Part shown: positions 1,502 to 20,330 of the stretch, one piece after another
Layout: each line of letters starts with the position of its first letter
Numbering within the stretch: the stretch's first letter is position 1
From: Aliiroseovarius crassostreae
Lineage (GTDB): Bacteria > Pseudomonadota > Alphaproteobacteria > Rhodobacterales > Rhodobacteraceae
NCBI RefSeq assembly: GCF_001307765.1
Contig: NZ_LKBA01000004.1
Coordinates: 1 to 64,000 of the forward strand
DNA length: 64,000 nt
Direction of reading: 5' to 3'
Made by a program: the position numbers and the translations under genes
The notes under the pieces: model-generated
Database searches by the model: none
What the model was told of the DNA's origin: nothing
The model's input: only the letters and a program-made list of their open reading frames with translations

Positions 1502-4500
1502 TTATAAGAAAAGGAAACTTTCGGCAGAAATCTGGGAACTGACCAAACCTTGAAGCACAACACCTGCTTTAGTGAGGCCCGTGCTATCGGTATCCCACTC
1601 AACAAGAACTCCATTTCTTGTATCTGTTATACTAAGGTCAGCAAAGCTACGCGCCCCCGTATAAAGAAGGAACATGTAATCTTCAGTGGTATCGAAGTCG
1701 GTGATTGCATCTACTCCATCCTCACCACCAAAGAAACTAAACGTATCCTGTCCTGTGCCGCCGATCAGGACATCATTCCCTTGCCGACCCTGGATGTTGT
1801 CATCTCCAGAGCCACCCCAAATAGTGTCATCTCCGATATTCCCAATAAGTCTGTCATCTCCACCCAGTCCAACCAGATAGGCTGCGTCACTTGTATATGT
1901 CAAAAAGTTGTCGCTGTAGCCGCTGCCAATGACGCCCTCAAAATTCCGAACGACATCCCCCTCATTGACAAATCTATTGTCGCGCAAAACATCAAAGCTC
2001 TCGGTCCCAATTTTGTGTTGGATGCCAAATTCGGATCCAGAGAAATCCAGATAGTCAAAGCCTTCACCACCGTCCAAAGTATCCACGCCGGATGATGCCT
2101 TGATGGTGTCATCCCCTCCCATACCGAGGATGTAATCATCTCCGTCGCTTCCGTCGATAAAATTGGAAACTGCGTTGCCTGTTTTTTTACTGCCATTGTC
2201 ACTGGCTTCGACAACCACGGTCGCCTTGCCGCTTAAGATTTGCCTTGCCTCTTCTACTGTTACGCCATGCAACAAGACGGAACTTTCCCCATTGCCGATT
2301 ATAGCAGAGCTTTTAAAGAAGCTTTGGGTTTTGGAAACTGGATCGAATACAAACTGGTCGGCTTCCATTGTTACTGTAAATGCAGTACCCGAAATATCGA
2401 GCGTATCTTCGGCCGCGTTGAAATCGTAAATCGTGTCCAGAGTACCGGCTTCATTCGACCCACCGATTATAAAGGTATCAGCGCCATCACCACCGACTAA
2501 GGCATCATTCCCTTCACCTCCAATCAGAGTGTCATTGCCAGCGCCCCCCACAAGCGTATCCGAACCTGCTCGGCCTGAAAGCCTGTCATTGCCTCCGATG
2601 CCAGAAAGATAGTTTGCAACATCGTCGCCCGAGATTTCGTCATCAAGCTGTCCGCCTACCACACCTTCAAAGTTTCGAAGCTTTATATACGATATAGTCT
2701 CCTTAACGGTACTGGACTGCTGATAAGTGTAGGCCCGTGCGTAACTCCATCCTTCCGGCTTCGCCCCAAGATCAATTTCAATTTGCTCGCCGCTTTCGCC
2801 TTCAAAGCTGACGATGTCGAAGCCCGTCCCGCCATCGAGTGTGTCGGTTTCGTAATCTCTTCCTGTGCTCCTACCAGGGAGCGCACCAGGCAGTATAATA
2901 TCATCCCCACCGCCGCCTGAAATATAGTCGGATCCTCGGCCACCAGAGATGATATTGGCATTGTTGTTACCGGTAATGGTGTCATCCCCAAGGCCCCCAA
3001 TCACACCTTCGAAACCGGAGATATTGTTGATCACATTTGCAGTGCTCGTTCCAGCGGGCGTTTCCTGTACGGATTGCTCACCGTTGAGATCTACATTCTG
3101 ACTTCCTGTAAGCATGTCGAAGCTAAGAATATCGTATCCAGATCCGCCCTCTCGATTGGAACCGGCCTGGATGGTATCATTTCCTGCTCCACCATGGATC
3201 GTATCCGTCTCTGCACCCCCATTAATAGAGTCCGCGCCTCTCGTTCCATTAATCTCTTCGCTGGCATTGGATCCTTCTAACGTCACATCCTGATTGAATA
3301 GCGCAGAAAACACCCCGTCTACATCTGCTTCGCCGTCGGCAGCTACACCTGAATCTTGATCGGATTTTGCCTGCAACCGGGCCAAATTTATGGACAGATT
3401 GATCATCTCTTTCGTAAATTCCACTTCGCCAGACTGGATCTTTCCCTGGCGCGCTGCAGCATTGAAGTAGCCCTCTATTACAATCGTTCGGGACAAATCG
3501 GTCGCGAATTCGGAGGTGATAACAAGATCATTGCCGACCTTCATCGGTTTCAATGAAGCAAAACTGATTTGGGCGGAGAAGAACAAGGTGTCGTCGGCCG
3601 AGAAATCTTTGATACGGAATTCTGTGTTACCTCCGGAGTTGGGCCCGACGAAGTACACATCTGCACCTCCATTTCCAACATAGTCTCCCGGAGAAGTCAG
3701 TACGATAAGATCGCGTTGAGTTCCGCCATTGCCATCCTTGACCAAACCGTCGATCAGGTTTCTATCCAATTCGAATTGGTCATTAAGAAAGTAATACTTC
3801 TCAACTGTATTGTGGTAGTCTCTGATATCAGTTGTACCGGAGAAGGACAGAACATTGTTCGATGTCGGCCCAGCCTGACCATCATAAGATATCGATGTAA
3901 GTGAGTCGATATCGTAAACGCCAGTCAAAAGAACCCGATCACTTCCCATACTTCCTTTGATGGTCATTTCTACGAGGTTCGGGTCACCGTCCCCGTGAAC
4001 GATAAAGAGGTCATCGCCAACTGAACCCACCTGGGATTCCGCCAAGTCACTCGACGGAAGCGATTGCCCTTCTGCAGCCACACGTTCACCGAAAATGTTG
4101 TTGCGCGCATAAGTGAACTCAGTGAGACCTCCAATCCCCAGTGAAACAATTGCATCGCTGGTGAGTTCCACGCTGCTTTCCTGTGCGCCTTCACTGCGAA
4201 TGGTTCGGGTGTCCGTATCACGATTTCCAGAATACTCTTGTTCCAGCCGGAAATCTGACACATCGGTCAAGTCAATGTTCACATAATCTAGAGGGCCAGT
4301 GCTGTCTTCAATCGTGATATCAGTAGTTTTCGAATTGTCCAGATTTACGGCATAAACGTCAGCATATGCTGTGCCGAAAATTACTTGATTAGCTCCTCCA
4401 CCGATCTGGAAATAGGCGGCCGCGTCGCTGTCGATTTGGATCTTTTCGACGCCTGCCGCAGAGATTCCTACTAAATCCGCGTCTGCAGCAGCAGCTTCGC

Positions 4501-7500
4501 CATTCTCTACGGCCTTGTTCAAGCCCTTCATATAGCTCTGCAAATGCGATCCGGCGTTATCACCAAGAAATATTGCCGTCTTTCGACCGTTGAAAGAATC
4601 GATTTGAAGCTCATCGAAGCCTTCACCCCCGACAATGCTGTAGAATCCTCTGCCTGGGCTGTCTATTCGCAGGAGGTCGTTTCCTCCCTTCAGATCGGCA
4701 GAAAATGTCTCCACGCGGAAGCTGTTGTTTATCTCCACGTAATCAGCTTGGTCGCTGCCGATAATTGACCCCGTCTTGTAAGATTTAGCATCTGGTGCAT
4801 CAGAAAGGTAGAGCGGCAGCCTACCGCCGCCGGTCATTGCGAGCGTGAAGCCTTCGCCCTCTTCGGAGTAGAGAATTGCCCGGCTGGTGTCATCCTTCGC
4901 CAGAACGACCATCTCAACGTCTTCGATTGTTGCGACTGAGTCGGTGCTCTTACCTTCTGTTCGCCATGTCAGATCAACTCTGCGATCGCCAGCGGCACTG
5001 GGAAGATCTGAGCTGGAAATGGTCTCACTGGGATTGCCGATTTCAAACCGTTTCAAGGTACTGTCAGTAATTGTCAGCCTGTCCAGATCAGCCGCACCAT
5101 CGCCGGAAACAGAGGAAACCGACCTGAAATCCTGCCAATCTCCCGAAGTAATCCGCAGAAGCTCATCTACATGTCCTGCGATCACGTTGTCACGGCCTTG
5201 GCCAATATTAATGTGATCTACGTTCGGCTTTGCCGCTCCAGGACCATCAATGTACTTACGAAACAGGCGCCACACGTCCTCTTGATAGGCAACCGTTTCT
5301 GTCGTCGTTGCTACACCAGCTTTCCCAATGACAGTTGTACCTGTGATTTCTTTGTACTTTGTTTCGGTTACCGTCCGGCCCTCATACACGAAACCGTATT
5401 TTCGATCGCCGGTGGATTGGTAGATAACTGTATTGTCAATACCTAGGTCATCGTAGAGATAGGCGTCACCTGCATAGTCCGCTCCAATGGCAACAATCGC
5501 CGTATTGGCCTTTATGCTATCGGGCTGGTTGTTAGTCATCCCTAATCGCCAGTCAGCACCGCTTTCTCGCCAGATAGCGGCGCCGGCGGTCGTTGTTTCA
5601 CTTGTTCGGGCTGCTGTCTGATTGGAGTTATCAAGCTCGGTCTGTGTAACTCCGTCCACTATGGTCACGGTGTATTTATATATTTGATCCGCATCATCCC
5701 TGATTGCTTCGGGAACGATTTTATCATATATTTTTTTGGCTTCCGCGTTTGAGGTTAGCATCGAGTAATTCGCCGTCTTGCCAGCCAATACAATCTGCTG
5801 CGCCTGCGGACCAAGATCTTGAATATTGCTGATAAGCTCCGGTTTCTTGGATTCAAAAAAATCCTCGGCAATCTTCTGGTATGAGTTTTGAAGGAATGCA
5901 AAGATATCGCCATCATCCAGAACATTTGGATCTCCAACAACATCGCCGTAGTTTTCTATCAGGTCGCCGGCCACTTCCGTGGCAAGATAGTTATCCCCCC
6001 ATGCGAAAGAAAATGCGTTAAAAATCGGGATGGAGTTGAATATTGCTTGTTTGTAAAGGGCCTCGAACGCGAACTTATCTGCTTCGGATAGGTTGGAATC
6101 GTCCAACATATTGCGATAGTGCTCAGCTTTCTCAATTGCCAAAAGATCAAAACCCGGCGTCAGCAGGTTGGCAATAGACAGGCCTTTCTGTAGGTCGGTA
6201 GCGTTTGGGTCATTAAATGTCTTAACAACTGTTGCAGCCCCAAAGGCCAGATCGGCCACTGCCCCTACGATAGCGCCCGCCACGCCTAACGCTTTTGAGA
6301 ATTTTGCAAACTTCGCAAGACCACTCAAAACATCCAGAACACCACTGATTGCCTCGAGAGAGGCCGACACGACCATAAGGCTCGCAACGGCTTTCTCAGC
6401 ATCGCTCGCCTTGCCTGACGAAAGAACTTTTTCAAGACCAATTGCAGATGAAATTGTAAAGGCCACCCCGCCGATGATTGAGCCGACCCCACCCGCTATG
6501 CCAGCTGCATCAGAAGACGCTCCTGGTTTGTTTATCTTGATATCTGAATCGATTGAAAAATCTGCATCCAATGAACTAAAGTCCAGATTACTTATTTTCT
6601 TTCCAGACTTGCTCGTTAGTGTGAGGTATGTGCCGTCTGCTTCAACTAACTGAATGAAGTTCGTGTGTGTCTTAAATTCGCCCACGGTGGAAGTGTATTC
6701 ACGAAAATCCACATCCAGCGCCTGAGTCTTAGCGGCGATTTTGTCGCGAAGCTCGGAAATCGAATCCGACTTTTTGTACACAACCGTATCGCCGCGGATG
6801 GATATAAATTCACCTTCGATCGTGGTATGGATGCCATTTGAATTGGTAATGACAAACTTGCCCGCTTCGGTGCTCGCATCTTTGTTATATCTTATTCTTT
6901 CGCCACTAAATTCTTGGGTTGCCTGTCCGCTAAGCGCCTCCGAGATAGACTTGTTTGCGGCAATACTATCTGTATAGACCGTTGTTTTGTCGTAGCGATC
7001 AAAGACATTGAATTCCGTTGACTTCGCGATAATATCTTGCTGCTGGTTAATTTTCTCGATTCTCTTCGTCAGCTCCGCTTCGAGATCTTCTAACTCATTG
7101 TGCGTAGCCTTGAGCTTGTCAAATTTCGCTTGCTGGTTAGGCGTCAAGGATATCGGATTGTTACCCATCGCTGTAATGTGCTTATCAAGCTCAAAACGAT
7201 CTGAGGTTGATAATACAAATTCAGATTTGAACTGATTTATCTTGTCAATTAGCGCGCTCGTTTGCTCATATGATAACTTATTGTACGCCGACTGCCCCGA
7301 TGCATAGGGCAGGAGAGTAAGCCCAGCCATCACCTCAGATTTCAATCCATACATTATATCGAAAGCTGCAGCCGCTTTTCCGGAGTCTGATAGGCTTCCA
7401 TCTTGCAGCGATTCAATAGAGCTGGCGATCAGTTTAGTTCCAGCAGTAGCCTTCCCCATTCCATGATAAAGCTTAAACCCCGCAATCGACTTGCCCAAAG

Positions 7501-7756
7501 CGGTAGGTAGATCAGGCTGCAAAGTCGCCAGCGAGGCGAACTCCCCCGCAACAGTATACGACGCTCCCACCGAAAAACTTAGAGAGCTGTAGTCGCTGTT
7601 TTCAGTTAGCGTCGGATCCAGCGCCTGCGCATATTTCTTGAATGCCGCAACGTCAGTTGAGACATAATCCGATACCAAAGCCGACAACTCTTCATCGGAA
7701 AGAACCTTGGATACCAATTGTGATGCTGCGCTTTGCTCGTGGGAATCCATCGTCAT
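1502..7756 (-). CDS. Giant RTX-type calcium-binding protein (2084 aa)
   Basis: A predicted secreted protein. Residues 1-415 have no recognised domain. Residues about 418-518 are a long, small-residue-rich hydrophobic stretch (AAGIAGGVGSIIGGVAFTIS and following), reminiscent of the pore-forming helices of RTX toxins. Residues about 700-1480 are beta-rich and repetitive without a clear family. From about 1515 to the end there are clusters of the nonapeptide GGxGxDxux (for example GGAGNDTIQAGS, GGAGNDTLIGGEGNDALVGG, GGSGDDNIQGRQGNDVLIGG), which fold as Ca2+-binding beta-rolls after export. The C-terminus has an aliphatic ISAESFLFL ending and no N-terminal signal peptide is visible, as in type I secretion substrates. 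No HlyB/HlyD/TolC or acyltransferase gene is in the window, so the exporter must be elsewhere. The gene is visibly AT-richer than its neighbours and lies between IS remnants, suggesting acquisition. It could be an adhesin, a nodulation-like protein or a toxin; the sequence does not decide. Confidence 0.85.
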   Translation of the reverse strand: MTMDSHEQSAASQLVSKVLSDEELSALVSDYVSTDVAAFKKYAQALDPTLTENSDYSSLSFSVGASYTVAGEFASLATLQPDLPTALGKSIAGFKLYHGMGKATAGTKLIASSIESLQDGSLSDSGKAAAAFDIMYGLKSEVMAGLTLLPYASGQSAYNKLSYEQTSALIDKINQFKSEFVLSTSDRFELDKHITAMGNNPISLTPNQQAKFDKLKATHNELEDLEAELTKRIEKINQQQDIIAKSTEFNVFDRYDKTTVYTDSIAANKSISEALSGQATQEFSGERIRYNKDASTEAGKFVITNSNGIHTTIEGEFISIRGDTVVYKKSDSISELRDKIAAKTQALDVDFREYTSTVGEFKTHTNFIQLVEADGTYLTLTSKSGKKISNLDFSSLDADFSIDSDIKINKPGASSDAAGIAGGVGSIIGGVAFTISSAIGLEKVLSSGKASDAEKAVASLMVVSASLEAISGVLDVLSGLAKFAKFSKALGVAGAIVGAVADLAFGAATVVKTFNDPNATDLQKGLSIANLLTPGFDLLAIEKAEHYRNMLDDSNLSEADKFAFEALYKQAIFNSIPIFNAFSFAWGDNYLATEVAGDLIENYGDVVGDPNVLDDGDIFAFLQNSYQKIAEDFFESKKPELISNIQDLGPQAQQIVLAGKTANYSMLTSNAEAKKIYDKIVPEAIRDDADQIYKYTVTIVDGVTQTELDNSNQTAARTSETTTAGAAIWRESGADWRLGMTNNQPDSIKANTAIVAIGADYAGDAYLYDDLGIDNTVIYQSTGDRKYGFVYEGRTVTETKYKEITGTTVIGKAGVATTTETVAYQEDVWRLFRKYIDGPGAAKPNVDHINIGQGRDNVIAGHVDELLRITSGDWQDFRSVSSVSGDGAADLDRLTITDSTLKRFEIGNPSETISSSDLPSAAGDRRVDLTWRTEGKSTDSVATIEDVEMVVLAKDDTSRAILYSEEGEGFTLAMTGGGRLPLYLSDAPDAKSYKTGSIIGSDQADYVEINNSFRVETFSADLKGGNDLLRIDSPGRGFYSIVGGEGFDELQIDSFNGRKTAIFLGDNAGSHLQSYMKGLNKAVENGEAAAADADLVGISAAGVEKIQIDSDAAAYFQIGGGANQVIFGTAYADVYAVNLDNSKTTDITIEDSTGPLDYVNIDLTDVSDFRLEQEYSGNRDTDTRTIRSEGAQESSVELTSDAIVSLGIGGLTEFTYARNNIFGERVAAEGQSLPSSDLAESQVGSVGDDLFIVHGDGDPNLVEMTIKGSMGSDRVLLTGVYDIDSLTSISYDGQAGPTSNNVLSFSGTTDIRDYHNTVEKYYFLNDQFELDRNLIDGLVKDGNGGTQRDLIVLTSPGDYVGNGGADVYFVGPNSGGNTEFRIKDFSADDTLFFSAQISFASLKPMKVGNDLVITSEFATDLSRTIVIEGYFNAAARQGKIQSGEVEFTKEMINLSINLARLQAKSDQDSGVAADGEADVDGVFSALFNQDVTLEGSNASEEINGTRGADSINGGAETDTIHGGAGNDTIQAGSNREGGSGYDILSFDMLTGSQNVDLNGEQSVQETPAGTSTANVINNISGFEGVIGGLGDDTITGNNNANIISGGRGSDYISGGGGDDIILPGALPGRSTGRDYETDTLDGGTGFDIVSFEGESGEQIEIDLGAKPEGWSYARAYTYQQSSTVKETISYIKLRNFEGVVGGQLDDEISGDDVANYLSGIGGNDRLSGRAGSDTLVGGAGNDTLIGGEGNDALVGGDGADTFIIGGSNEAGTLDTIYDFNAAEDTLDISGTAFTVTMEADQFVFDPVSKTQSFFKSSAIIGNGESSVLLHGVTVEEARQILSGKATVVVEASDNGSKKTGNAVSNFIDGSDGDDYILGMGGDDTIKASSGVDTLDGGEGFDYLDFSGSEFGIQHKIGTESFDVLRDNRFVNEGDVVRNFEGVIGSGYSDNFLTYTSDAAYLVGLGGDDRLIGNIGDDTIWGGSGDDNIQGRQGNDVLIGGTGQDTFSFFGGEDGVDAITDFDTTEDYMFLLYTGARSFADLSITDTRNGVLVEWDTDSTGLTKAGVVLQGLVSSQISAESFLFL

Positions 7757-12617: not shown

Positions 12618-13996
12618 ATGGGACCGAAGCAGGAGGCACAAGCGGCACTGTTCTACGAGTTTTCGCTGGAGGATCATGTCCCGCAAGACCATCTTTTGTG
12701 ATCGATTGATCGGCATCTCGACCTGAGCTGCGTCCGGGGACATCTGGCAGGTTTCTACAGCCATACGGGGTGTCCATTGATCGATCCTGAACTGATGATC
12801 CAGATGCTGCTGGTCGGATACTGTTTTGGTATCTGGTCCGAGCGGCGGCTTTGCGAAGAGGTGCATCTGCACCCCGCCTATCGTTGGCTCTGCCGCCTTG
12901 ATCTGACGGTCAGCATTCCGGATCATTCAACCTTTTCCAAGAATCGTCACGGTCGCTTCCGCGAAAGCGATCTGCTCCGCCATGTATTCGAGGCGACTGT
13001 TGCGCGTTGCATGGACGAGGGGTTGTTCGGTGGTCAGGGCTTCGCGGTCGACGCCAGTTTGATCAGCGCTGATGTTCAGAAGCAGAACTCGAGCAACCCC
13101 GAGGACTGGGCGGCCCGGGAGATCAATCCGAATGATGCACCCCGCGCAGCACAAGAGTATCTCGATACGCTGGATGATGAGGCTTTTGGGGCCGCGACAA
13201 CGGCCAAGCCAAAGTTCGCCGCACATGCTGATCCTGCCAGCCAATGGACAGCCGCGCGCAAAGGACCCGCATTCTTTGCCTATTCTGACAATTACCTCAT
13301 CGACACGGACCATGGGATCATCGTGGACGTGGATGCCAGCCGGTCGAACAAGACCGCTGAGGTCGGCGCGATGAGAAAGATGCTGGACCGGACCGAAGAG
13401 CGCTTTGGCGTGAAGCCAGATTGGATCGCCGCTGACACGGCCTACGAGTCGTCCGACAATCTGGTCTGGCTAACACTGAAGCGCCAGATCCTCCCGTTCA
13501 TCCCCGTCTTTGACAAGGGCGAACGGTCCGACGGGACCTTCTCGCGATCCGACTTCGACTGGGATGATGAGAACGACCGCTACATCTGCCCGGGCGGCAA
13601 AGAGATGCGGCATACATGGCGGACATATTCTGATCCCAAACGGAATGCGCCAGTTTGGAAATCTAGAAACTATCGCGCCTTGAAGTCAGACTGCACAGGA
13701 TGCGCGCTGAAGGCAAAGTGCTGCCCCAACGCCGAAACGCGTTCGGTCCATCACGACAAATATGAGATCGTCAGAGACTTTGCCCGGCAATGCACCACTT
13801 CAGACTTCAATCCCAAGGCTCAGGCGCGACGAAAAAAGGTCGGGATGCTCTCGCTCACCTCAAGCGCATCCTTGGCCTCGGACGGCTCCGATTACGGGGC
13901 CCATGCGGCGTTCAAGATGAGTTCACACTGGCAGCAACCGCCCAAAACCTCCGGAAACTGGCAAAACTCAAGCCGATGGTACCAGCCACAGGATGA
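12618..13996 (+). pseudogene. IS1182-family transposase, disrupted by a nonsense codon and a frameshift
   Basis: The ATG at 12618 starts GPKQEAQAALFYEFSLEDHV but meets TGA at 12699, where relatives have an Arg-like codon before SID. The frame then continues from about 12702 (HLDLSCVRGHLAGFYS, then LMIQMLLVGYCFGIWSERRL, DHSTFSKNRHGRF, AVDASLISADV, DWIAADTAYES with the catalytic Asp residues). A frameshift near 13830 moves the C-terminus (HLKRILGLGRLRLRGPCG, containing the region of the catalytic Glu side) into another phase, ending at 13996. At least two lesions make it inactive. The ends of the element were not found with confidence. Confidence 0.8.
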
Positions 13997-14083
13997 AGGG
14001 CGATCAGGACTTCCACATCCAAGAGGAATCAAAGCGATAGCTTGAACAGAAACGCCAAAATCAGAGAGTTTTTCAACGAAATC

Positions 14084-14283: not shown

Positions 14284-15816
14284 TCAGAAACGTATCTCTA
14301 ACACGGCACCGCCCTCGTTCGGGATCACGCACAGCGTTGCGCCATAGATGTCCAGAAGGGCGGATACGATCGCCAGCCCCATCCCAGTGCCCCCTTGGTC
14401 GCGGCGGGTGGTGAAGAAGGGATCAGCCAGCTGCGCGGCATCATTTTCCGAGATCCCCTCGCCATCATCGCGGATGCTCAGGACGCCATTTTGATGCTGA
14501 AGCGTCAGCTGGCGCGCGCCGTGGGCAAGCGCGTTCTGCGCCATGTGCAGCAAGATAATTTCGCCATGTGCGACCGAAAGAGGGATTTCGCGGGTGCTGT
14601 TTTGGGCGATCCGGATCGTCAACCCGTCGATATCCGGCAGCATCGCCGCCAATTCCCCCGGGCCCTTCTGTGTCTCTTGCCGCAGCTGAGACATCTCGCG
14701 CAGCCGTGTCAGCAAGATGTTCATCCGCCCAGTTTCGCTGCTGATATTTCCCAGAAGCTTGGCCCGGTTTTCCGGGCTGAGGTCGCCGCTTTGCAACAGC
14801 TCGGCCGCCCCCAAGATCGACGTGACTGGCGACTTCAATTCATGGGTGACATGATCAGTATAGGTCGCGATCTCATTTGACCTTTGGTCCAGGGTATCCG
14901 CCATCGACAACATGCTTTCACCCAGATCTGCCAGCTCGCGCACACCATAGTGGCGCAAGGGTTCCGAGCGGGGCTTGTCCCCCGCTGCAATCGCGCGCGC
15001 CTCATTGCGCAAGCCACGAATTGGACGGGACATGAGGCGCAGCAACAGTGCCCCGAGCAGCAGCGCACCGGACAGCGTAAAGACACCCATGATCATCAGG
15101 GGGTCACGCTCGCGGAACACAAATTTGCGCAAGCTAAGGGGGGTGCGCGACAGCAGCACAACGCCGATCACACGGTCGTCCGACAGCACTGGATAAGCGA
15201 TGAACACCCGATACCCCGTATCGCGGCTGATCGAGTTCAGAGGGTGGCGGCCATAATCGTCGTCACGGGTGCGCAGGGTGACACCGACCCCCCCGGACAG
15301 GGCGGTCTGAACCTCAGGCAGTCCTGCGAAATCATGCAGCCCGTCTTCGCCCAGCCCGACGCCTTCGTGATCCAGGAAAATCGCCCCGGCCAAAGTCGTC
15401 CGGCCTGCGGCTTCGGCAAGCGCACGAAGGCGGGGCAAGGTTTCCACGTGGCGTGGGTCTGTGTGGGCATCAACCGGGCTCCCGGCGGGCAGAGGGGGGA
15501 GGACCTGTTGTTTTCGAACATCTATTCTGGAGGGAATCGGGTGCAGTGGTTCGCGCCAGAACGCCATCTGTTCGTCACCTACCGTGGGGCCGATCGGGGC
15601 TCCGCCCAGGTTGTCGAACACGGTCCGGTAAACCTCGGCATAGATGGCGCCTTGCTTTAATAGCGACTGCTCGGTTTCGCGGACAAATTGGTTGGATGTC
15701 AGCTGCACGGTCAGCATTGCCGCAAGCGGGATCGACACGAGAGTCACGCAGATAAAGCCGACAACCAAAGCCATCGAGGGGCGCCATTTTTGACGGATCC
15801 GCGTCACAGGCTGCAT
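14284..15816 (-). CDS. Sensor histidine kinase (CreC-like) of the exosortase gene unit
   Basis: A 510-residue membrane kinase. There is a transmembrane helix at about residues 15-36, an extracytoplasmic sensor region to about 235 with a Cache-like look, a second helix at about 237-260, and a HAMP-like segment. The H-box HVTHELKSPVTSI follows (phospho-His near 325), then an N-box HMAQNALAHG, and G-boxes DDGEGI and GGTGMGLAI. The start overlaps the response-regulator stop by 13 bases. It is the last gene of a four-gene unit with the regulator, the VIT/VWA protein and the exosortase, so it probably senses envelope state relating to that surface protein. The CreC resemblance is by layout only. 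Confidence 0.85.
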   Translation of the reverse strand: MQPVTRIRQKWRPSMALVVGFICVTLVSIPLAAMLTVQLTSNQFVRETEQSLLKQGAIYAEVYRTVFDNLGGAPIGPTVGDEQMAFWREPLHPIPSRIDVRKQQVLPPLPAGSPVDAHTDPRHVETLPRLRALAEAAGRTTLAGAIFLDHEGVGLGEDGLHDFAGLPEVQTALSGGVGVTLRTRDDDYGRHPLNSISRDTGYRVFIAYPVLSDDRVIGVVLLSRTPLSLRKFVFRERDPLMIMGVFTLSGALLLGALLLRLMSRPIRGLRNEARAIAAGDKPRSEPLRHYGVRELADLGESMLSMADTLDQRSNEIATYTDHVTHELKSPVTSILGAAELLQSGDLSPENRAKLLGNISSETGRMNILLTRLREMSQLRQETQKGPGELAAMLPDIDGLTIRIAQNSTREIPLSVAHGEIILLHMAQNALAHGARQLTLQHQNGVLSIRDDGEGISENDAAQLADPFFTTRRDQGGTGMGLAIVSALLDIYGATLCVIPNEGGAVLEIRF

Positions 15817-16538
15817 CGGCCAAGCTTGATGCCGACGCCATGGACGGTCACAATGATGTCGTCGCAGCCCACCAATGCGGCCTTGGCCCGGATATTGCGG
15901 ACATGGCTGTCAATTGTGCGGCCCGACATGGTCGAGTTCGCGCCATAGATGGCCTGGATCAGCTGGTTGCGGTCATGCACGTGATCTGGCCGTGCCAGCA
16001 GGCTGGCGAGCAGTTGAAACTCGGTTGCGGTCAAGTCCAGCGTGTGATCGGCAATCCGGCAGACATGCCCGGCATTGTCTAAAGACAGCTGACCGCGGCT
16101 TTGCGGGCGCGATGCCGCGTGGACCCGAGACAGGATCGCCTTGATCCGCAACACCAACTCACGTGGGCTGAAAGGTTTGGGGACGAAATCATCCGCCCCC
16201 AATTGAAAGCCCAGCACGCGGTCAATCTCATCATCGCGGGCGGTCAGGAACAGCACCGGCACATCAGATCGCGCCCGGATCGCCTTGCAGCAATCGAACC
16301 CGTCCATGTTGGGCATTCCGATATCCAGAACGACCAGATCGACCTTTTCGCGCGCGACATGTGTCAGGGCAATCTCGCCGTTCGAGGCTTCGGTCGTGCG
16401 CATCCCTGCGGCCTCCAGCGCGATACGGATGATGTCGCGGATTTTGGGATCATCGTCTACAATCAGAACATGCGTAACCATAGGTGACATGTTGCAAGAG
16501 GCAGGGGTGATGTCCAGCCTTACATGTTGGCCTTTCAT
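15804..16538 (-). CDS. OmpR/CreB-type response regulator
   Basis: A 244-residue two-domain regulator. The receiver domain has the acidic pair in VLIVDDDPKIR, the phospho-acceptor Asp in LVVLDIGMPNMDG, and the conserved Lys in DDFVPKPFSPRELVLR. The C-terminal winged helix is of Trans_reg_C type (DLTATEFQLLASLLARP, then SGRTIDSHVRNIRAK). The ATG at 16538 lies 4 bases after the stop of the VIT/VWA gene; ATGs at 16490 and 16481 are alternative starts closer to the family N-terminus. It overlaps the kinase gene. By position it is expected to control this unit or an envelope response. Confidence 0.87.
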   Translation of the reverse strand: MKGQHVRLDITPASCNMSPMVTHVLIVDDDPKIRDIIRIALEAAGMRTTEASNGEIALTHVAREKVDLVVLDIGMPNMDGFDCCKAIRARSDVPVLFLTARDDEIDRVLGFQLGADDFVPKPFSPRELVLRIKAILSRVHAASRPQSRGQLSLDNAGHVCRIADHTLDLTATEFQLLASLLARPDHVHDRNQLIQAIYGANSTMSGRTIDSHVRNIRAKAALVGCDDIIVTVHGVGIKLGRCSL

Positions 16539-16542
16539 CAGA

Positions 16543-18654
16543 TTACACCTGCTTCATTCGACGCGGCCGCAGCCCCAGCAATGTCATGACCGCGACAAGG
16601 ATCATACCAAGCATGGCTTCGGGTTCGGGCGCCGAAGAGCCGGAAAAGCCCTGCGGATAAGCCTCTTCGCTGACACCAGACACCATAGGCAGGGGGACCC
16701 CGGCAGTGTTTGCTTCGCGGTCAGTATCGTTCACAACCTTCTGCGACACAGCCACGAATGAGGTGTTCTTTGTCTGCAGCGAGAACTCCAGCCCCAGTCG
16801 CGTAATCTCGGCATCCGCTGCCCCGGCGCGGTCACGTACGGCGATGCGACGCTCCATCGTTGCGATCTGATTGCGCGCCCAGATCAGCGGCAGAGCTGCC
16901 TCACCCTTCTGATCGGACAGGACCAGCTTCACCGGCATTTGGGCTTTGCGTCCTTGCACCAGACCGTTCAGCATCACCTGCCCCTGATCCGCCCCCTTAT
17001 AGCGCGCATAGATGCGCAGGCTGTTGCCCGCAAACAGATCCGGGATGCGCGCAGGCGTAATGTCAGAAACCTCAAGCTCGCCCCAGTCAATCTCGATGTC
17101 GGTCAGAAGCGGGGTCTTTAGATTGGCAGCCATGACCTCGGCCACTTCCATCGCGTCTTCGTCCAGCCCGACATAACGTGCGTAACCGCGCCCTTCCTCG
17201 GCCATGGCATCCAGCAGATATCGATTGACCGAGCTGCCAATCCCGAACGCATAGATCCGCGCCTGCCCGATTTGTTCGCGAATGGTGCGTAGGACCTGGG
17301 CCTCACCCCCGATATAGCCATCAGACAGGAAGACCACGATGCGCATGGTATTTGCGGGGCTGGAGGTGGCAAAGGCCGCGTGGATGGCATCGTCGATCTC
17401 GGTCCCGCCACCGGAGGTCAGTTTCGAGACAAACTTTCGCCCCGCTTTGATGTTGCTGCTTGTTGCCGGGGTCGCGCCCTGTGCAAAATGACGGGTCGTG
17501 TCGGAAAACGGGATGATGCGGAAATAATCATCTGGACGAAGCCCCTTCAGCGCCGCATCCATGAACCGTTTGCTGGCGGCCATCGGCTGGCCCGACATTG
17601 ACCCCGAGGTGTCCAGGACGAAGACCAGTTCGCGCGGGGTGGCGGTGGCCTCATTGGGAATTGCAGGCGGCTCGATCATCACGGATAGAAACCCGCCCCG
17701 CTCATCATGATGGGTCAGGGTGGCCGCCTGTAACGCCTCACCGCCCAGCATATAGCGCAGGATAAGATCCTTGTTGTCCATCACCTTGCCCTGAGTGAAA
17801 CGTGCGCCCAGCCGATTATCAGTTTCAGTGATGTCCAGCGGATGGGTCGGGCTGGCAAACTGCGAAACCTCAACGCCCGCGACCATCGTCACGTCCAAAG
17901 ACACGCGATCCGATAGAAAGCTGTCGGGCAGGTCAAGACCCGCCACCTGCGGGTAGGCAGGCAGGGGGCTGATCGTCCATGTGGCGTTTTGCAAGGTGGC
18001 GTCATCATCCTGCGCTAGGGCGGGTTGGTCTGCTGCCGGGTTTTCGTGGCGCGGGCCGACAATCATCGGGATGACCAGTTCATATTGCCCGTCAATTTTG
18101 GGCACCATCTGCACATATTTCAGCGTCACCTCAACCGGCAGTCCGGGCATAAGGTTGGCGATCTTCTGGGTGAACATGTTGGGCCGGTGCTGGGTCAAAA
18201 GCGCAGCTGCTTTGCCGTCTGAGGCCGCTTGCTTGTATTCGGCTTCGGCCACCTGTTTTTCACGAATGACAGCCCGCACAATCTCATCACCCACCTGCAT
18301 GGTCATTCCAAACACGGCGGCGTTCTGGTTCAGTGGGAAAAGATATTCGGCCTCAAGCGGGATCTGAGACGGGTTCGAGAAGGTCTGGCGCAGCTCAACC
18401 GTGGCCATGTCCCCCTCGATATTGACCGAATAGGCACTGTCCAGCATGGGCAGTTCGACCGTCTCGCCACCGACTTGGGCCACAACCCGACCGGCGACGC
18501 CCTCATGATCAGTCTGGGAAAACGCGCTGAGGGGGATGGCAAGGGCATAGGCGACAAGCACGATCAGAAGCGTCACCCGATTGATGCGGGGAAAGCGACG
18601 GCCTGGATTGCGCGGGATATGCCGCTGCGTGTTGCAGGAGGTGAGATTGGTCAT
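16543..18654 (-). CDS. VIT/VWA-domain surface protein with PEP-CTERM-like sorting tail (exosortase substrate)
   Basis: A 703-residue exported protein. It has an N-terminal hydrophobic export signal (about residues 27-47), then a VIT domain (about 60-200) with DMATVELRQTFSNPS and LEAEYLFPLNQNAAV, and a VWA domain (about 340-510) with an intact metal site DTSGSMSG. A further region links to a C-terminal SAPEPEA motif, a hydrophobic helix (MLGMILVAVMTLLGL) and a basic end RPRRMKQV. That tripartite tail is the layout of PEP-CTERM exosortase substrates. The ATG at 18654 is preferred because AAGGAG lies 7 bases upstream; a TTG 8 codons earlier has none. It is encoded directly after the exosortase. 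Related VIT/VWA proteins are known targets of dedicated proteobacterial sortases, which suggests a surface adhesin or matrix-binding role. Confidence 0.85.
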   Translation of the reverse strand: MTNLTSCNTQRHIPRNPGRRFPRINRVTLLIVLVAYALAIPLSAFSQTDHEGVAGRVVAQVGGETVELPMLDSAYSVNIEGDMATVELRQTFSNPSQIPLEAEYLFPLNQNAAVFGMTMQVGDEIVRAVIREKQVAEAEYKQAASDGKAAALLTQHRPNMFTQKIANLMPGLPVEVTLKYVQMVPKIDGQYELVIPMIVGPRHENPAADQPALAQDDDATLQNATWTISPLPAYPQVAGLDLPDSFLSDRVSLDVTMVAGVEVSQFASPTHPLDITETDNRLGARFTQGKVMDNKDLILRYMLGGEALQAATLTHHDERGGFLSVMIEPPAIPNEATATPRELVFVLDTSGSMSGQPMAASKRFMDAALKGLRPDDYFRIIPFSDTTRHFAQGATPATSSNIKAGRKFVSKLTSGGGTEIDDAIHAAFATSSPANTMRIVVFLSDGYIGGEAQVLRTIREQIGQARIYAFGIGSSVNRYLLDAMAEEGRGYARYVGLDEDAMEVAEVMAANLKTPLLTDIEIDWGELEVSDITPARIPDLFAGNSLRIYARYKGADQGQVMLNGLVQGRKAQMPVKLVLSDQKGEAALPLIWARNQIATMERRIAVRDRAGAADAEITRLGLEFSLQTKNTSFVAVSQKVVNDTDREANTAGVPLPMVSGVSEEAYPQGFSGSSAPEPEAMLGMILVAVMTLLGLRPRRMKQV

Positions 18655-18681
18655 GGAAAACTCCTTTTCGTCGGTCAAATA

Positions 18682-20103
18682 TCAAAGGTCCAAGGCGGCC
18701 AGCGCGGCGGCCTCGAAGGCAATGCGCTGGGGCTCGGGCATGGATTTTGGAGTGATGCGCTGGACAGATTGCCAGACGCGCGAGGAACCGTTCAGCCAGC
18801 TCCAGACGGCTTCTCCGACACCGGCGGTCTGGGCGCCGTCTTTTGACACAAAGCTGACGGCAACGGTCCAGACCTGCCCATCAGGCGAGGTCGCCTCGTA
18901 TACCGAGGTCGGCAGCGGGTCGAAACGGGTGCCCAGAAACCGGACGTCATATCCCATCCCCAACAGGCAGGTCGCGGGCGAATGCAGATGGCGCAAGGGC
19001 GACGCCGTGCGCACGATGTTCAGCCCCATCGGTCCGAACTGAGCCTTCTGTGCGGTGCCGCCATAGCTGGCAAAATAATGCTGTTCGGTCGGGGTAAGCG
19101 GGACGGGCTGTGCCGGATTGCCCAGCAATTGATCGGGCACGAAGATCGCTGTCACGCTGTCCGATCGGTCCAGCGGCGTGCGTGGGGCGTTCACCACCGC
19201 CACAGCCATGACAAGCGCCAGCAGGGTCGCGGGCACGTGCAGGATGCCGGGCAGTTTGAACGTGAGGGACGGGGTTTGTCGTAGGGCAACGGGCGGCGGG
19301 CGATAGAAAATCACCACGGGCAAAGCCACCAGCGCAAGAGAGACCAGGCCAATGGCGGAATGCAGGCTGGGCTCCATCGTGTTGATACCCTGGCCCAGCC
19401 CAGTAGCAAGAAGCGTGATCCGCACGCCATTTCCGACCACCGTCGCCAGCCCGATCACAACACCAGCAAGCATCGCGTGCAGAAGACCGGGGCGAAACAG
19501 CACGTTGATGAAAGACCACAGGCTGACCATCAACAGCAGGCCCGATGCGCCGGAACAGGGCAGATCAACCAGCACGTCGATCCCGTTCAGTTGAAGCCGC
19601 ACGCCCTCACAGGTCAGGTCGGCAAAGAAAGGAGTGAGTGCCACACAGGCGACCTCGGCCGACATCATCTGAAGGGGAAAACCCGCAACACGTTGCAAAA
19701 TCGGGGCCAGGGGCAGGCAGAACAGGAAGAACACCGACAACCAGAACGGGGACAGGGAGATCCTGCGCTGATCTAGCCGCAGGAAAGTCGCCAGCGCGAA
19801 GATGTCGATGGCGAGCGCCAGCGCGCTGAGGATGTTGATCGCCAACATCTGCCCCGCCAGCCGGATCGCCGCGGCAATAAGGAATAGAACAAAAACGCGT
19901 CCTCGTGCGTCTGGCCCGCTTGGGGACGAGCTGCAAAGGGACAGGATTGCAAGCCCGACAATCACGGCGCCGTACCAGCCTCCGTTTGACTGGTACGAGG
20001 GATCGCGCCAACTGGTTAACAGCCACCGAACAGGGTCGATGGCCAACAAGGCCGAGGCCGTCGCAAGGCCAATCCACAGCAAGGTATCGCGTTTTTGTTC
20101 CAT
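18682..20103 (-). CDS. Exosortase with fused EpsI-like C-terminal domain
   Basis: A 473-residue polytopic membrane protein of the exosortase/archaeosortase family. The catalytic triad is visible in hydrophobic context: Cys in DLPCSGASGLLL (about residue 184), Arg in VGNGVRITLL (about 226) and His in EPSLHSAIGL (about 248). After about residue 300 there is a soluble region with RHLHSPATCLLGMGYDVRFLGT, resembling the EpsI/DUF3485 domain often fused to exosortases. The enzyme is expected to cut and transfer proteins carrying a PEP-CTERM tail, and the next gene, 27 bases downstream, encodes just such a protein. It is the first gene of the unit. I recall a subfamily called exosortase T in this lineage but cannot confirm membership here, so no symbol is given. 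Confidence 0.87.
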   Translation of the reverse strand: MEQKRDTLLWIGLATASALLAIDPVRWLLTSWRDPSYQSNGGWYGAVIVGLAILSLCSSSPSGPDARGRVFVLFLIAAAIRLAGQMLAINILSALALAIDIFALATFLRLDQRRISLSPFWLSVFFLFCLPLAPILQRVAGFPLQMMSAEVACVALTPFFADLTCEGVRLQLNGIDVLVDLPCSGASGLLLMVSLWSFINVLFRPGLLHAMLAGVVIGLATVVGNGVRITLLATGLGQGINTMEPSLHSAIGLVSLALVALPVVIFYRPPPVALRQTPSLTFKLPGILHVPATLLALVMAVAVVNAPRTPLDRSDSVTAIFVPDQLLGNPAQPVPLTPTEQHYFASYGGTAQKAQFGPMGLNIVRTASPLRHLHSPATCLLGMGYDVRFLGTRFDPLPTSVYEATSPDGQVWTVAVSFVSKDGAQTAGVGEAVWSWLNGSSRVWQSVQRITPKSMPEPQRIAFEAAALAALDL

Positions 20104-20330
20104 ACTGCGGTTTTGCGCAGACAGATGTGCAGATCAGCGATGCAAGATGTGCAGAATATGTGCAGGGGCTGGCTTCGCGCGCCCGACCTTAAACCTGTGG
20201 CACGAATACCCTGCCATGCTTCGCATTCTCGGGACATTCGCGCCACATGATGTTTCAGGGAATAGGCCGGACGCTTTAGATGACGCGATTTATACGTTTC
20301 TTGGGTTTTTTTCTGCGATTGCGAGGCCTA

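Follow-up and report, generated by a model that had tools for sequence, protein, structure and literature searches.

How does an exosortase operate when a single protein in the genome carries a detectable tail for it, and when both are encoded beside a two-component regulatory system? Genomes with exosortases usually encode many substrates for them. The question is raised by positions 14284–20103 of the window, by which is meant the whole stretch of 64,000 nucleotides analysed here from Aliiroseovarius crassostreae contig NZ_LKBA01000004.1; the source genome comprises 3,721,151 bases on 27 contigs. Open reading frames and profile scans place four minus-strand genes in this region, as an earlier note made from the sequence had read: exosortase T (XrtT), a protein with VIT and VWA domains, a response regulator, and a sensor histidine kinase. 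The likely answer is that these genes form a self-contained surface-display cassette under CreBC-like control, which would present one VWA protein at the cell surface.

The enzyme is exosortase T, an existing named NCBIfam family. Its gene (18682–20103, minus strand) encodes an exosortase domain fused to an EpsI-like C-terminal domain, and the product matches NF033770 over its whole length with 673.6 bits (curated cut-off 250) and Pfam PF09721 with 62 bits (cut-off 25.7). The subfamily comparison suggested in the earlier note is answered by this match, and the enzyme family is consequently not new. The protein differs in nothing from the family, and cleavage and transfer of a PEP-tailed target would be its expected activity, judging from the substrate encoded next to it. 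The catalytic cysteine, anticipated near residue 184, is present at position 183. Together with R228 and H248 it makes up a Cys/Arg/His active site that is invariant in all 17 aligned loci. Within the EpsI-like part, H374 and C379 are likewise invariant (17 of 17), and the resemblance of this tail to EpsI is borne out by two separately encoded EpsI proteins from exosortase Q (XrtQ) loci, which match XrtT profile positions 290–447 and 284–392. The whole genome holds one exosortase match at E up to 0.001. A search of 72,556 plasmid records gave no match to XrtT, and no chain in the PDB matched it at E up to 1.

The adjacent gene encodes the presumed substrate, a protein of 703 residues when read from the likely ATG at 18654, which stands behind AAGGAG (16543–18654, minus strand; the open frame runs from 18678). 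Pfam VIT (108.5 bits) and VWA_3 (69.6 bits) are both above cut-off. The VWA metal site is complete, and its residues D348, S350, S352, T418, and D445 are invariant in 17 of 17 loci. Its relatives among PDB chains include those of PARP4 and ITIH. The earlier note proposed a comparison with TIGR03788-type sortase targets; the similarity is real (459.8 bits) but lies below the cut-off of 551.65. The C-terminal sorting signal (16546–16650, minus strand), recognized by alignment and tail profile, consists of GSSAPEP, a hydrophobic helix, and a basic end, RPRRMK, all of which can be read in the translation as originally described. EP is found in 17 of 17 aligned tails and PEP in 16; the further locus L122 adds one PEP, giving 17 of 18. 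A region of a Pontibacter plasmid gene annotated as a SusC/RagA-type outer membrane protein (L089, 6421–11115) also carries a VIT/VWA region, 33.8% identical to the cassette substrate.

The substrate appears to be the only one of its kind in the genome. No match to the Pfam PEP-CTERM model PF07589 lies above cut-off in the genome, but this model misses the cassette's own tail too, and a tail profile was therefore built from 16 XrtT-type tails. It finds the substrate's own tail at E 1.3e-19, with the next two matches at E 0.27 and 1.3, so that the proposed check for further PEP-CTERM tails returns one match beyond noise. There is likewise one TIGR03788 match in the genome at E up to 0.001, and the direct neighbours of the substrate gene are XrtT and the response regulator.

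The two remaining genes, whose identification as a response regulator and a sensor kinase stands on Pfam domains above cut-off, encode a CreB-like regulator of the OmpR family (15804–16538, minus strand; Response_reg and Trans_reg_C) and a CreC-like histidine kinase (14284–15816, minus strand; HAMP, HisKA, and HATPase_c). The start of the kinase gene overlaps the end of the regulator gene (15804–15816). The earlier note set the module beside the dedicated sortase systems, but by the scores this is not the pair of those systems: the regulator reaches 135.1 bits against TIGR03787 (cut-off 335.7) and the kinase 40.4 against TIGR03785 (cut-off 612.2), and the best NCBIfam models are CreB (NF008296, 220.3 bits, cut-off 273) and CreC (NF008312, 154.4 bits, cut-off 356). 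With both of these cut-offs missed, true CreBC membership was rejected, and the claim made here is that the pair works like CreBC. The phospho-acceptor Asp72 of the regulator is present in all 16 aligned sequences, and His325 of the kinase in 14 of 16; the other two do not reach the position, one kinase being cut by a contig end (L034) and one, from a metagenome assembly, carrying an in-frame stop (L036).

The same four genes recur together. Of 295 genomes of the family, 80 match NF033770 at E 0.001, but all weakly except for the 6 that pass its cut-off; in the class, 4 of 337 genomes pass it, the source genome among them. A scan of the collection, in which a pattern matched 24 stretches, yielded 10 named loci, each with a Paracoccaceae or Roseobacteraceae label; these, with seven others (L042–L044, L086–L088, and L122, where XrtT starts were placed by alignment or estimate) and the window, make up 18 XrtT loci. 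The VIT/VWA gene adjoins XrtT in all 18. The regulator and kinase adjoin both in 17, which makes the adjacency more than chance, and among the loci with the pair, four or more other family codes of the class are represented. The genes around the cassette do not travel with it. Ten proteins flanking it in the window were compared at E 1e-15 with the remaining 17 XrtT loci (about 8 kb of flank or less per locus): nine have no match, and the tenth has low-identity matches in three of the 17. That the flanking genes are not common to XrtT loci counts in favour of a self-contained cassette. Genome G833, from the same genus, gives no hit to the substrate profile at E up to 1e-40, and the occurrence of the cassette is thus patchy even inside the genus.

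Ten flanking frames were scanned with Pfam. On one side they include an uptake system of the ABC/periplasmic-binding/FecCD type and a transposase gene; the other side has RidA-type and FAD/2Fe-2S oxidoreductase genes. No exopolysaccharide (EPS) gene is among them, in agreement with the claim that no EPS operon is attached. The transposase gene (Pfam DUF772; 12777–14045, plus strand) lies directly downstream of the cassette and fits movement of the region; no inverted repeats of at least 14 bases were found around it. Elsewhere in the window, at 1502–7756 on the minus strand, is a gene for a 2084-residue protein with RTX-type calcium-binding repeats (Pfam HemolysinCabind).

A candidate control site lies immediately before XrtT. 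The predicted operator (20126–20165, minus strand), found as a conserved block and by repeat counts, contains three CTGCACA half-sites at 20165–20159, 20154–20148, and 20132–20126, that is, at offsets 0, 11, and 33. CTGCACA-N4-CTGCACA, followed by the third half-site 33 bp from the first, is the main conserved block, and a clear one, in the 230 bp upstream of XrtT in 10 aligned loci. The core TGCAC-N6-TGCAC precedes XrtT in 13 of 18 loci, at 59–61 bp in 11 of them, and when spacings of 0–15 are counted, only 6 is enriched. In the 3.72-Mb genome, the 14-base two-site form with up to one mismatch has one match, the XrtT site, and a reversed control pattern has none. The regulator probably serves this operon alone, since no second operator was found in the genome sequence. 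Two near-identical loci of the set, L039 and L040, which count as one observation, carry the half-site pair a second time, about 440 bp ahead of the operator of XrtT (7506–7521 in L039, with the full 0-11-33 layout to about 7544, and 7505–7520 in L040). This copy sits ahead of small open frames, possibly a further regulated gene; one frame, of 55 residues, presumably resembles seed-maturation-type repeats.

Whether a direct repeat of this kind belongs to VIT/VWA proteins with exosortases more widely can be seen outside the family. When 349 genomes of the phylum were searched with a profile built from 17 substrates, 35 of them matched, at 37 places, at E up to 1e-40. The VIT profile used for locus surveys held one wrong 46-residue row (L036, wrong frame), which was corrected for the trees described below. 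In 20 examined stretches, covering 21 of the 37 places, a GN-type sortase lies beside the gene in 15, XrtT in one, another exosortase in three, and no enzyme was found in one. The three other exosortases are XrtQ (NF012182, 335–370 bits, cut-off 270), each with a substrate that ends in a PEP tail. XrtQ is above cut-off in 1 of 303 genomes of the class of one such locus and in 40 of 260 of its family. In that family 42 genomes matched in all, two of them already represented; 41 XrtQ loci were assembled from the first three and 38 of the 40 further family matches, two below cut-off being left out. The VIT/VWA gene lies beside XrtQ in 40 of 41 loci (not in L200), and EpsI is found in all 41, fused or in one frame with XrtQ in seven and in its own frame in 34. 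CreB is present in 24 of the 41 stretches and CreC in 27, and the CreB/CreC pairs of L139, L176, and L207, the three scanned, pass the NCBIfam cut-offs.

The upstream regions of the XrtQ loci carry a repeat of the same geometry. The cre tag published for CreBC is TTCACnnnnnnTTCAC (PMC3660660). With L200 (no VIT/VWA gene) and L210 (truncated) left out, TTCAC ranks first (31 of 39 loci) when all 5-mers that recur at spacing 6 ahead of the VIT/VWA gene are counted, in a script that also searched for the cre tag. Spacing 6 occurs in 32 of 39 loci, and the next best count at any other spacing from 0 to 15 is 8. Within 500 bp before the VIT core, the tag TTCAC-N6-TTCAC is found on the gene strand in 35 of 39, three more than 32 because those open frames run on upstream. 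The XrtQ systems of this other family are thus a parallel to the XrtT cassette, with their own matching repeat. Both combine an exosortase, a PEP-tailed VIT/VWA protein, and a direct repeat of 11-bp period, often with CreB/CreC nearby in the XrtQ case. XrtQ systems differ in that EpsI is mostly separate, CreB and CreC are above cut-off in the three pairs scanned, the half-site is TTCAC rather than TGCAC, and a creD homologue is nearby in 8 of 41 loci compared with 0 of 18 XrtT loci. In eight of nine XrtT regulators printed, the recognition helix is SH[IV]RN, and in the ninth it is SHIRH; all five CreB proteins printed have [TA]H[IV]KT. The helices differ in step with the half-site, which is a correlation only. 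At L173, L174, L179, L188, L191, L194, L195, and L209, the creD homologue is next to, and divergent from, the VIT/VWA–XrtQ genes, with cre tags in the common upstream region. This arrangement suggests that, in that family, the surface protein of XrtQ is part of the creBCD regulon.

Taken together, the gene set, the conserved residues, the tail, the single detectable substrate, the conserved operator, and the kinship to XrtQ/CreBC systems point to the following course of events. The kinase would sense an envelope or periplasmic state and phosphorylate the regulator, which would bind the TGCAC direct repeats before XrtT and set expression of the operon; control by the CreBC-like pair through these repeats is the most likely arrangement. 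The VIT/VWA protein would be exported and held in the inner membrane by its PEP motif, helix, and basic tail. Most likely, XrtT cleaves this protein for surface attachment, cutting at or near PEP by means of its Cys/Arg/His residues, perhaps helped by the EpsI-like domain, and handing the product on. At the surface, the VWA domain, with its complete metal-ion adhesion site, may bind a ligand such as matrix, polysaccharide, or a neighbouring cell.

Several points weigh against this account. Operator binding, the sign of control, cleavage, anchoring, the signal, and the ligand are all inferred from sequence. Both members of the pair are below cut-off for CreB and CreC. None of the 18 XrtT loci has the exact cre tag, and control of these loci by that tag was rejected on this count, the variant TGCAC-N6-TGCAC being found in 13 of 18. 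The exact operator is itself missing in 5 of the 18, just as the exact cre tag is missing in 4 of 39 XrtQ loci (near forms in L205 and L206, none in L186 and L123). By chance, a genome of this size should contain about one match that allows up to one mismatch, so the single match is no proof alone and the weight lies on conservation and the absence of other matches; among 100 shuffles of the window alone, 41 contain a match with up to two mismatches. Away from XrtT, the half-site pair occurs five times in 349 kb of XrtT loci, where 0.67 are expected: one occurrence is in L086, two neighbouring ones are in L040, and the others are the second copies in L039 and L040. The operator ends about 22 bp before the XrtT ATG in the window, close for an activator site, which makes repression or a leaderless transcript possible. 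Finally, the 10-kb contig of L088 lacks a two-component pair, and in L044 about 1.2–1.5 kb separate the VIT/VWA gene from the regulator.

The alternative that survives best concerns the fate of the substrate. XrtT might only cleave and release the protein, or the protein might remain in the inner membrane and act there as the kinase's periplasmic partner. For most exosortase systems, anchoring at the surface is inferred, and a kinase encoded in the same cassette could read substrate processing; against this stand the fused EpsI-like domain and the conserved PEP tail, which are features of exosortase sorting systems in general. This alternative is judged unlikely, and it would be compatible with the regulatory part of the surface-display reading. 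Less probable still is that the pair stands beside the sorting genes by chance or hitch-hiking and that the regulator controls something else. The locus without a pair (L088), the other gene order of L087 (regulator, kinase, XrtT, VIT/VWA), the frequent absence of creBC from the XrtQ stretches, and the few half-site pairs away from XrtT all speak for such an association. It is opposed by the adjacency in 17 of 18 loci across several family codes, by the placement of an OmpR-type direct repeat at a nearly fixed distance before XrtT in 11 loci, and by the lack of a second operator match with up to one mismatch in the source genome. The cassette under its own CreBC-like control is preferred as the reading of the locus.

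The earlier note also proposed that the processing enzyme had been replaced within a conserved surface-protein module. It was right that an exosortase takes the place that a class GN sortase has beside other VIT/VWA proteins, and that the tail is matched to the enzyme. Substrates linked to GN sortases have a PxT tail in 17 of 19 cases (PxTA in 14), whereas PEP tails are found in 17 of 18 XrtT-linked and 36 of 39 XrtQ-linked substrates. No sortase was found among the window genes scanned, nor, with a local sortase profile, in L088 and L122, the two XrtT loci to which it was applied. This profile consists of five sequences: three of the four scanned are just under the TIGR03784 cut-off (136.9, 157, and 139 bits), the fourth is above it (169 against 158.25), and the fifth is annotated as a class GN sortase. 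GN-sortase modules exist in the same family, where 3 of 290 genomes are above the TIGR03788 cut-off, with the sortase beside the gene in L077–L079. In G194, contigs C96 and C6 (L080 and L081) carry a VIT/VWA gene in two parts at contig ends, probably an assembly break, with the GN sortase of 169 bits on one of them.

When the replacement might have occurred was addressed with trees. The substrates of XrtT, XrtQ, and GN sortases form separate groups (support 100/99, 100/100, and 100/100; 12, 12, and 19 rows), with 6 of 18 XrtT and 27 of 39 XrtQ rows left out of this tree and of the approximately unbiased (AU) test. A tree of all 79 rows plus three outgroups gives the same groups, with XrtQ support at 72, two outgroup rows inside XrtQ, and one outgroup very long. 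A clade that unites the XrtT substrates with the GN substrates of Rhodobacteraceae is rejected (p-AU 9.3e-35), as is one that unites them with all alphaproteobacterial GN substrates of the set (p-AU 1.5e-37). The sister pair among the three VIT/VWA groups is not resolved, any pairing of three groups being a branch. The two-component pairs of the three systems group together, apart from 10 other Escherichia coli pairs (90/85 for response regulators and 97/94 for histidine kinases), in an order that is not resolved and with three GN-linked pairs. Histidine kinase trees are without L034 and L036, response regulator trees without L208 and L192 (one also without L182), and every second XrtQ row was left out of the pair trees.

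A recent swap, in which a Rhodobacterales GN-sortase module lost its sortase and took an exosortase with the tail changing along, is very improbable and is rejected inside Rhodobacteraceae by the tree and AU test under the model used: the substrate architecture is the same in both systems and L077–L079 show that GN modules occur in the family, but the substrates fall into three separate groups, the two-component pair is from another family, and no such pair is seen in the stretches of four GN loci, three from Rhodobacteraceae and one from Rhizobium. The grouping of the two-component pairs leaves room for a deep exchange, in either direction, in an old module, so that the replacement idea fails as a recent event and is compatible with the data as an ancient one. 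As a tentative and rather speculative extension, CreBC-family pairs and VIT/VWA proteins may be one old module in which the anchoring enzyme was exchanged among class GN sortase, XrtT, and XrtQ. This module would have become a closed circuit in Rhodobacterales, with one regulator for one operator and one enzyme for one substrate, and E. coli CreBC would be a regulator that outlived its surface-display output. In the 8-kb creABCD stretch of E. coli, no such partner was seen.

Set beside known systems, the cassette shares parts with several. Like the dedicated sortase system (TIGR03784, TIGR03788, TIGR03787/TIGR03785), it joins a VIT/VWA target with its own sorting enzyme; there, a two-component pair is nearby in 3 of the 19 loci looked at. 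Unlike the cassette, the dedicated sortase system has a sortase, a PxT-type tail, other two-component families, and no common 11-bp repeat, no 5-mer being repeated at spacing 6 in more than 1 of 19 GN-sortase loci. The exosortase N system (TIGR04476/TIGR04477) resembles the cassette in pairing a dedicated exosortase with a target of its own, in that case a VIT-domain protein of Bacteroidota. Membership is not supported by the XrtN model, which gives only 31.5 bits (cut-off 200); TIGR04477 has no match in the genome, although control genomes have none either. EPS-linked exosortase/PEP-CTERM systems (XrtA/EpsH; PMC1569441) have the same enzyme family and PEP-type tail. They differ in having many substrates, compared with one detectable here, and in the EPS genes, which the scanned frames flanking the cassette lack.

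Within the literature searched, no paper joins an exosortase with CreBC or with “VIT domain”, and a search by name gave none about XrtT, XrtQ, or XrtN, judging by titles. To that extent the direct-repeat operator, the parallel between XrtQ and the cre tag, and the tree test are new; the description of NF033770 may cover the gene neighbourhood. With one enzyme, one detectable substrate, and an apparently private switch with one operator, these marine bacteria would offer a minimal set-up for dissecting exosortase sorting. The pairing of one substrate family with three enzymes makes the co-evolution of tail and enzyme, and enzyme exchange itself, testable. The link of exosortase/VIT–VWA genes to control of the CreBC type, which is seen in two systems whose operators correspond without being identical, suggests a candidate physiological output for CreBC and, in return, would give exosortase systems a candidate signal, namely envelope or metabolic stress.

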